64,000 nucleotides of DNA from Subtercola boreus (lineage in GTDB: Bacteria; Actinomycetota; Actinomycetes; Actinomycetales; Microbacteriaceae): the NCBI RefSeq assembly GCF_006716115.1, contig NZ_VFOO01000001.1:806001-870000 (forward strand). Direction: 5' to 3'. Position 1 is the first letter of the stretch, and every line of letters begins with the position of its first letter. Under the pieces are notes generated by a model that was not told the DNA's origin, made no database searches, and worked only from the letters and a program-made list of their open reading frames with translations. Shown in pieces: positions 9,130 through 39,701 of the stretch. A program made the position numbers and the translations under genes.

Positions 9130-9166
9130 AAAGGCCCCGCACACCGAAAGGTGGGCGGGGCCTTTT
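9130..9166. terminator. Bidirectional terminator between rsrA and kgd
   Basis: An 11-base-pair outer stem (aaaggccccgc with gcggggccttt) encloses an inner acc-gaaa-ggt hairpin and is followed by T bases on the plus strand. It suits both converging transcripts. Confidence 0.85.
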
Positions 9167-17317: not shown

Positions 17318-17384
17318 CCCGCGTCCCCCGCCTGCCCCGGCCCCGCGCGTCCACTCCCGCCCCCCGCTCCGCTCGTCGATCCAG

Positions 17385-17440
17385 ACCCCGAAAGTTGCCG
17401 GTAAGCGGCAACCACTCCGGCAACTTTCGAGGTTTCGATC
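17385..17440. repeat. Long inverted repeat (hairpin A), upstream of the DUF559 gene
   Basis: The arms cgaaagttgccgg (17389-17401) and ccggcaactttcg (17417-17429) pair perfectly over 13 bases, with weaker pairing outside towards GATC on both sides. A related hairpin lies at 18452-18514. The rest of the gap 17318-17515 shows only a GC-rich stretch and the promoter of the next gene. Confidence 0.85.
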
Positions 17441-17503
17441 AACTCTGTCGAGGGACTGAGTGGCTGGGCTGTGGATAACTGCCAAGGGCGGTGGCGCTGA
17501 CGC

Positions 17504-17509
17504 GAGTAT
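17504..17509 (+). promoter_or_regulatory. -10-like box of the DUF559 gene
   Basis: GAGTAT ends six bases before the GTG at 17516. It keeps the A at position 2 and T at position 6 of actinobacterial -10 boxes and fits a leaderless transcript. Confidence 0.35.
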
Positions 17510-17515
17510 GGGGGC

Positions 17516-18448
17516 GTGAGACATCCCGTTCCCCTCCCTGGCACGCTGGGCGATGCTGCGTTCAGCCGGTCGGCGGCGCGCCGGGCGGGGGTCGGCGATG
17601 GCCGGCTGCGAAGGACGGACCTCCGTGCGCCGTTCCATGGCGTGCGGGTCAGCGACGGAATCGCTCCGCCGGGCATCCTGGGTCGATGCCTCGAATACGC
17701 CCCGCGGTTGCGGCCCGGCCAGTACTTCAGCCACGAGACTGCTGCGCTGCTCTGGAACCTCCCGCTGCCGGGAGCCGGGCGTTCGCAGGCGACTCTGGAC
17801 GTCTCAGCCGACGCCGACCGCACCAAGCCGCCGACCGCCCGAGGTGTGCGCGGGCACGCCATCCGCGACGATCGGGTGCGCGTGCTCGCGCTGGGCGGGC
17901 TCCCCGTCGAGGACCCCGTCTCGGCTTGGCTGCACCTCGCCCGGATGCTTTCGCGCAACGACCTCGTTGTCGTCGGAGACGCGCTCGTGTTCAGGCCGCG
18001 TTTCCCTCGCTCGTCTGACGCTCGGCCATACTCCGATCTCGGAGATCTTGCTGCACGCGTGGGGAGTTACCGGGGCAGGGGCAAGCTCACTCTGGCGTCT
18101 GCGCTCCGTCTCGTTCGTGAGGGGGTGGAGTCTCCCATGGAGACACGGCTCCGACTGTTGCTGCTCATGCACGGCCTGCCGGAGCCGCAGGTCAACGTGG
18201 ATCTTTTCGACGAGACGGGCCGGTTTGCAGGCCGGGCCGACCTCTACTACCCGCGCCAGCGCGTGGTGGTCGAATATGACGGTGAGCAGCACCGCCTGAG
18301 CAGGGCCACCTACCTGGCCGACCAGAAGCGTCTTGCGCGTCTCCGCAGAATCTGCAGCGACGTCATCCGGGTGACCGTCGACGGCCTCCGATCCGAAGCG
18401 CACCTCACTGTCGCCGACGTACGCGCCGCGCTCGCGGTCGGCCCGTGA
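17516..18448 (+). CDS. DUF559 endonuclease-fold protein with AbiEi-like N terminus
   Basis: A 310-residue protein of a family widespread in actinobacteria. The N-terminal part (about 15-75) resembles the winged-helix region of AbiEi-type antitoxins, and the C-terminal part is a DUF559 domain with the PD-(D/E)xK-like elements ESPMETRLR, GRADLYYP and VVVEYDGEQH (about residues 200-265). Biochemical function is unknown; DNA repair or a toxin-antitoxin role are only suggestions, and no partner gene is adjacent. It is a lone gene enclosed by two related hairpins. The GTG start was chosen from the nearby -10 box. Confidence 0.8.
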   Translation: MRHPVPLPGTLGDAAFSRSAARRAGVGDGRLRRTDLRAPFHGVRVSDGIAPPGILGRCLEYAPRLRPGQYFSHETAALLWNLPLPGAGRSQATLDVSADADRTKPPTARGVRGHAIRDDRVRVLALGGLPVEDPVSAWLHLARMLSRNDLVVVGDALVFRPRFPRSSDARPYSDLGDLAARVGSYRGRGKLTLASALRLVREGVESPMETRLRLLLLMHGLPEPQVNVDLFDETGRFAGRADLYYPRQRVVVEYDGEQHRLSRATYLADQKRLARLRRICSDVIRVTVDGLRSEAHLTVADVRAALAVGP

Positions 18449-18451
18449 TGC

Positions 18452-18514
18452 GATCGAAACCCCGGAAGTTGCCGGTCTGGGCCGCGGATACCGGCAACTT
18501 TCGGGGTGTCGATT
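18452..18514. repeat. Long inverted repeat (hairpin B), just after the DUF559 gene
   Basis: A 25-base left arm (18452-18476) and right arm (18490-18514) pair with only two non-Watson-Crick positions around a 13-base loop. It starts three bases after the stop codon and could end transcription. Its core gaagttgccgg matches hairpin A upstream of the same gene. Confidence 0.9.
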
Positions 18515-28234: not shown

Positions 28235-28273
28235 AAGGAGGGCCCCGGCGTTTGTTACGCCGAGGCCCTCCTT
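28235..28273 (-). terminator. Hairpin terminator after metY
   Basis: An outer stem aaggagggcc/ggccctcctt (28235-28244 with 28264-28273) plus an inner cggcg/cgccg stem encloses a short loop, followed on the minus strand by a T-rich run. It separates metY from metX. Confidence 0.8.
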
Positions 28274-39561: not shown

Positions 39562-39616
39562 CCTGCGATGCTAGCCGCCCTCCCGGCCCCCCTCCCTGCG
39601 ATCCCGTCCCCACCTA

Positions 39617-39678
39617 CATCGAGTGGGCAGTTTGGGCCCCAACCGCGGCATTTTGGGGCCCAAACTGCCCACTCGATG
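39617..39678. repeat. Long perfect hairpin (26-bp stem) between crotonase and arginase-family genes
   Basis: The arms 39617-39642 and 39653-39678 are perfectly complementary over 26 bases around a ten-base loop. It lies in the 140-base gap 39562-39701, which otherwise holds nothing recognisable. It could end the arginase-family transcript on the minus strand. Confidence 0.93.
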
Positions 39679-39701
39679 GAGGTCCGGGGGAGCGGCGGGG
39701 G

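Follow-up and report, generated by a model that had tools for sequence, protein, structure and literature searches.

A DUF559-like nuclease gene bracketed by its own palindromes in Subtercola boreus looks like a counterpart of REP/RAYT systems

Introduction

Short palindromes served by a gene of their own are known from the REP/REPIN repeats and their RAYT (TnpAREP) partners. In this arrangement, the REPtron, the gene is flanked by cognate palindromes, the repeats are dispersed over the genome and each family has one gene (PMC3116915, PMC8266576, PMC6006769). According to a 2018 survey among these studies, Actinobacteridae carry TnpA-Y1 of subclass 1.1, the insertion-sequence subclass, only. 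Thus far, extragenic palindromes with a dedicated gene have been tied to a single enzyme family, the HUH/Y1 RAYTs.

The locus described here, from Subtercola boreus, looks like an unrecognised counterpart of REP/RAYT, apparently run by an unrelated enzyme. As in REP/RAYT, each repeat family has essentially one chromosomal gene, with cognate palindromes on both sides of it and many further copies standing alone in intergenic regions. Several families coexist in a genome, each with its own gene, and gene and repeat co-vary. However, the enzyme is a predicted DUF559/Vsr-like protein of the PD-(D/E)xK type, whereas RAYT is an HUH/Y1 transposase. The palindromes are about 60 nt long, with 15-18 nt between conserved arms, while REPs span 20-40 nt; they lack the GTAG foot and occur in tens of copies rather than in hundreds. 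What IS200/IS605 elements share with this locus is a hairpin on either side of a gene. They differ from it in that there is here no Y1 transposase and no adjoining TnpB, and in that the gene unit is present once and the hairpin by itself in multiple copies.

Results

Two related palindromes enclose a single gene

The window analysed, a 64-kb stretch of DNA, had been annotated initially as carrying two paired hairpins, at 17389-17429 and 18452-18514. Both are real, with extents that we now place at 17378-17440 for the upstream copy, A1 (arms 24 nt, loop 15), and 18453-18513 for the downstream copy, A2 (arms 24 nt, loop 13), neither being assigned to a strand. They are 76% alike across 63 nt, in register. 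The core sequence that they were said to have in common holds, as AAGTTGCCGG occurs exactly at the four hairpin arms and nowhere else in the window. The GATC outer ends, also described as common, are shared only in part. Shuffled versions of the 64-kb window contain no palindrome as strong as A1 or A2. Folded as ssDNA, the upstream hairpin reaches -18.8 kcal/mol (z = -4.9) and the downstream one -26.3 kcal/mol (z = -6.1), with 0/200 shuffles as good in either case. As annotated, they enclose one gene (17516-18448).

We considered a terminator reading of the hairpins and rejected it for lack of any terminator-like site: there is no U-tract terminator at either of them. A known RNA family was rejected likewise, since the Rfam search gave nothing at threshold and only generic hairpin matches below it. 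Two other hairpins of the window, at 9130-9165 (AAAGGCCCCGCACACC..) and 28235-28273 (AAGGAGGGCCCC..), have the ordinary terminator-like form and are unrelated to the palindrome families A-D described below.

The enclosed gene encodes a DUF559-like protein

The gene (17516-18448, + strand; gene start sites are approximate) encodes a predicted 310-aa DUF559/Vsr-like PD-(D/E)xK protein, composed of an N-terminal region and a C-terminal nuclease domain. The initial assignment to DUF559 is weak for the window protein itself, whose match to Pfam PF04480 (E = 0.002, 18.4 bits) lies just below the gathering cut-off of 20.6. It is backed by the relatives, 26/27 of which match DUF559 at E <= 0.1 (best 7.5e-9) and 22/27 MTES_1575, the Vsr-type REase domain. 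In the alignment E209 and D242 are invariant and E253 is near-invariant, a PD-(D/E)xK-like pattern. A confident AlphaFold2 model (pLDDT 90.8) found nothing at E <= 0.001 in a Foldseek structure search; Vsr endonuclease appeared among the weak matches (prob 0.72), which is not significant because of its E-value of 0.47. A search of NCBIfam with the window protein gave no match, and the defence library gave a weak mREase_II match alone (E = 0.024). By the Pfam matches, clearest in the relatives, and by the PD-(D/E)xK-like residue pattern, the gene encodes a predicted DUF559/MTES_1575 nuclease and no HUH/Y1 tyrosine transposase. Since in addition the palindromes have neither a GTAG foot nor the length of REPs, 20-40 nt, the system is not a RAYT.

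The C-terminal nuclease domain belongs to the same profile families as Vsr/MTES_1575-type REases and DUF559 proteins (PMC3710099). The MTES_1575 prototype differs: it is a giant protein made up of many domains and has been discussed as a member of conflict systems (PMC3710099). In the literature searched (open-licence papers, no preprints) we found no link of DUF559/MTES_1575 to palindromic repeats. The N-terminal region shows very weak, borderline AbiEi-like matches, in single or few relatives. This likeness to AbiEi antitoxins of type IV toxin-antitoxin systems (PMC3985639) lies outside the nuclease domain; here the region is fused to a nuclease domain and no AbiEii toxin gene adjoins, the neighbours being a corC-like gene and an oxidoreductase gene. 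Distant relatives of the protein were found on three Arthrobacter megaplasmid records and one phage contig only, so carriage does not indicate a phage or plasmid gene.

Each paralogue in the genome has its own palindrome pair

The initial annotation proposed a genome-wide search for the core. The 13-nt half-site alone shows no excess over the reversed control (16+22 vs 22+23 matches), so that half-site counts are uninformative by themselves. In contrast, paired A arms at a fixed spacing of 28 nt are enriched, with 7 sites in the genome vs 1 in the control. Six of the seven are genuine: two flank the gene and the other four are found away from it. The seventh match looks like chance, because the control also yields one. 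There is a further degenerate copy at 1224731. A third match to the short exact pattern, at G000:C1:3315420 (G000 being the genome of the window) was excluded as an A copy, as it lacks the outer arms.

G000 contains three other full paralogues, 44-46% identical to the window protein, one of them recovered as a split match. Each of the four good paralogues (4/4) stands between two palindromes with a sequence specific to it: the long palindromes of the other three, B (CCATCGAGTGGGCAGTTTGGGCCC...), C (...CATATCGCGCCA...) and D (TCGAATCGATTCGAT...), are all different. The flanks of a more distant homologue at 3743164 have no such palindrome pair. The window also contains a stand-alone B palindrome, at 39612-39683 (no strand assigned), whose cognate gene is the paralogue at G000:C1:3634258. 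This palindrome is near-perfect over 72 nt (-39 kcal/mol); the preceding gene stops 18 nt before it and the next one starts 51 nt after it. Its neighbours are an arginase-like gene and an enoyl-CoA-hydratase-like gene.

The locus has empty sites in other species

The corC-like gene and the oxidoreductase gene that flank the window cassette adjoin each other in other species too, without a DUF559 gene between them. The hairpin-gene-hairpin unit occupies this position in G000, G002 and G003. The empty sites sought among relatives were found in five species (G001, G005, G006, G008 and G009), in which a short spacer only, without gene or hairpins, separates the two neighbours. In G004 and G010 the slot is taken by one palindrome only, which belongs to another family (GAGAGCGAC...GTCGCTCTC; L116 and L117, at ~1390-1500). 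The proteins encoded at the locus in G000, G002 and G003 are 52-57% identical; their palindromes differ from one genome to another, yet left matches right within each. Thus, the gene standing in the same place without hairpins, which would have spoken against the initial reading, is not what relatives show: their gene keeps hairpins, of different sequence.

Palindrome types follow the cognate gene across the genus

The DUF559 gene family is present in all twelve genomes of the genus set, G000 included. Flank-to-flank similarity averages 47.7 within a locus vs 24.2 between loci; no conclusion draws on the flanks of L058, a locus at a contig edge. B-type copies number 15, 6, 20 and 4 in G000, G002, G003 and G007 and 0 in the other eight genomes (control zero), and the B-clade protein (support 100/96) is present in exactly those four. 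In G006, the sister of the B-clade protein is paired with another palindrome. Of the AAAAGCACC type, the five genomes that have a matching gene contain 32, 16, 9, 8 and 8 copies, G008 a single orphan and the remaining six genomes 0; this type occurs on two separate protein branches. In G001, 32 palindromes of one family correspond to one matching gene. The A-type pattern is confined to G000 within the genus. The G002-type pattern has 8 copies each in G002 and G003 and none in any other genus genome; G003 keeps its 8 although the palindromes of its own gene have diverged. Hence the possibility raised initially, that the hairpins occur randomly at gene ends, fails, as copy presence tracks the cognate gene. 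In the genomes compared, the nuclease-like gene and the palindrome family travel, vary and disappear together, and the pairing of a gene lineage with its own repeat family holds, with some exceptions.

The pattern counts permitted arm gaps of 6-22 or 8-24 nt, and despite these wide gaps the inter-arm spacing takes nearly always one value. The arms are conserved in sequence and the loops drift. In the B family one arm pair covaries, partly along species lines. The hairpin tips show no covariation in the register tested, and a single-stranded, folded form of the palindromes is thus no more than plausible.

Dispersed copies lie at gene ends, with one in-frame insertion

Among 38 sampled dispersed copies 37 are intergenic, mostly where two genes converge and never where two diverge (placement relies on a simple codon-usage gene caller, and individual calls may be off). 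The suggestion of a REP-like element at gene ends thus generalises to palindromes of the same family elsewhere in the genome. The exception is an A copy (L045, G000:C1:3715413-3715447) located inside the coding sequence of a copper P-type ATPase and in its reading frame. Copper ATPases of solved structure, like two actinobacterial homologues (~60-62% identical), show a gap of ~23 residues at this position. The lack of those residues in homologues points to an insertion, and the simplest reading is that the palindrome was inserted alone, with nothing else attached.

Discussion

We propose that a REP-like family has its source in the unit formed by this gene and its two palindromes. We consider it probable, from sequence comparison, that the nuclease cuts its cognate palindrome and that repair then spreads the copies. 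It is strongly implied that the protein recognises this palindrome, and we infer that it binds it. The protein would most likely be a palindrome-specific PD-(D/E)xK endonuclease that recognises its own ~60-nt family by arm sequence. It could cut the palindromes perhaps when they are extruded as ssDNA hairpins at replication forks, and repair or template switching after cutting could leave extra copies elsewhere. PD-(D/E)xK nucleases can cut but are not known to join strands; for this reason the copying would have to fall to host repair or replication. Stand-alone palindromes could then be non-autonomous offspring that have survived mainly in gene ends, and each nuclease lineage would have its own palindrome, both evolving together.

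Other explanations could account for part of these observations. The palindromes could be sites for the N-terminal DNA-binding region of the protein, acting in autoregulation and perhaps in chromosome organisation or gene-end marking; the nuclease domain would then serve another purpose, such as defence, and the palindromes would have spread by another route. Conserved arms, drifting loops and a near-fixed spacing are what a two-fold protein site would look like, and the very weak AbiEi-like matches of a few relatives point to a transcriptional regulator. However, the sites are found at the 3' ends of genes, in no case between divergent promoters, the pair brackets the gene rather than standing on its promoter side only, the nuclease residues are conserved throughout and one copy was inserted within a coding sequence. 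Overall, we regard this explanation as unlikely. We give a much lower probability to homing, in which the nuclease would cut cassette-free alleles, gene and palindromes would spread as a unit and stand-alone palindromes would be relics. Vsr-like homing endonucleases exist, and clean empty and cassette-bearing sites are found in one intergenic slot. Against this, stand-alone palindromes outnumber genes many-fold, as the 32 of G001 illustrate, and the ATPase insertion consists of a palindrome only.

Just as improbable as homing is a MITE-like repeat moved by another transposase or by replication slippage, with the DUF559 gene as a passenger. Dispersed copies without the gene would fit it, and no nuclease of the PD-(D/E)xK/Vsr-like fold is known to mobilise short palindromes. 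However, one gene family is bracketed by unrelated palindromes at most tested loci, and copy presence follows the cognate gene, which a passenger gene would not show; these comparisons bring the explanation close to refutation. The least credit of all goes to ordinary bidirectional terminators or stabilisers of mRNA 3' ends, unrelated to the gene they flank. In favour of it, the hairpins stand near stop codons, mostly between convergent genes. Yet, besides the missing U-tract and Rfam match and the copy within a coding sequence, their sequence is specific to the gene family and absent from genomes without the gene. We thus favour the nuclease with its cognate palindromes as the source of the copies.

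The organisation extends well beyond the genus. Profile searches found the gene in 100/150 genomes of the family (Microbacteriaceae) and in 172/297 of the class. At 62% of 86 family loci the upstream flank resembles the downstream one, against 1.7% for distal flanks of the same locus and 0.08% for other loci, and strong hairpins are present in 60% and 53% of the two kinds of flank vs 0.6% in the control. At 56 loci from the other families of the class, the flanks match in 80% (controls 1.8% and 1.2%). About 20-40% of the surveyed loci have no clear palindrome pair. Palindromes match in 0-1% of protein pairs below 40% identity, in 29% at 50-60% and in 90-100% above 60%. Across loci the median palindrome measures 60 nt and its arms 23 nt, and the commonest outer 4-mer, CGAG, is only mildly enriched (42 loci vs 27 shuffled); a conserved GTAG foot on palindromes of 20-40 nt is not what these loci show. 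In one family of the class (L242-L249 and others), the palindromes have in common an outer TGATCATGG motif. It contrasts with the CGAG-type ends common in Microbacteriaceae, and a clade-wide foot sequence is possible.

If this proposal is true, the combination of a gene with its repeats has also formed around an unrelated nuclease and thus arose more than once. A widespread actinobacterial protein that is so far uncharacterised would also gain a likely function, and many of the hairpins between actinobacterial genes would be accounted for. The paralogue-specific palindromes are moreover a natural set of protein-DNA specificity pairs. It is tempting to go further and see here a new class of PD-(D/E)xK repeat-spreading systems across Actinomycetia, with ~60-nt palindromes, evolved independently of REP/RAYT, filling the niche of RAYTs where these are absent and tied to replication through a DnaA box, a proposal to which we give about even odds.

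The replication part of this wider proposal comes from the promoter region. At 17470-17478 (+ strand), 46 nt ahead of the start codon, lies TGTGGATAA, the reverse complement of the DnaA-box consensus TTATCCACA, as a single copy in the 64-kb window. This predicted DnaA box could possibly link the nuclease gene to replication control, which we take as a lead and not as a finding. The same sequence is found exactly, 42-49 nt upstream of the start, in 21/27 aligned DUF559 genes. With one position relaxed (TGTGGAHAA) it is present at 17/86 family loci and 10/56 class loci, the expectation measured in the family set being ~0.002 per locus.
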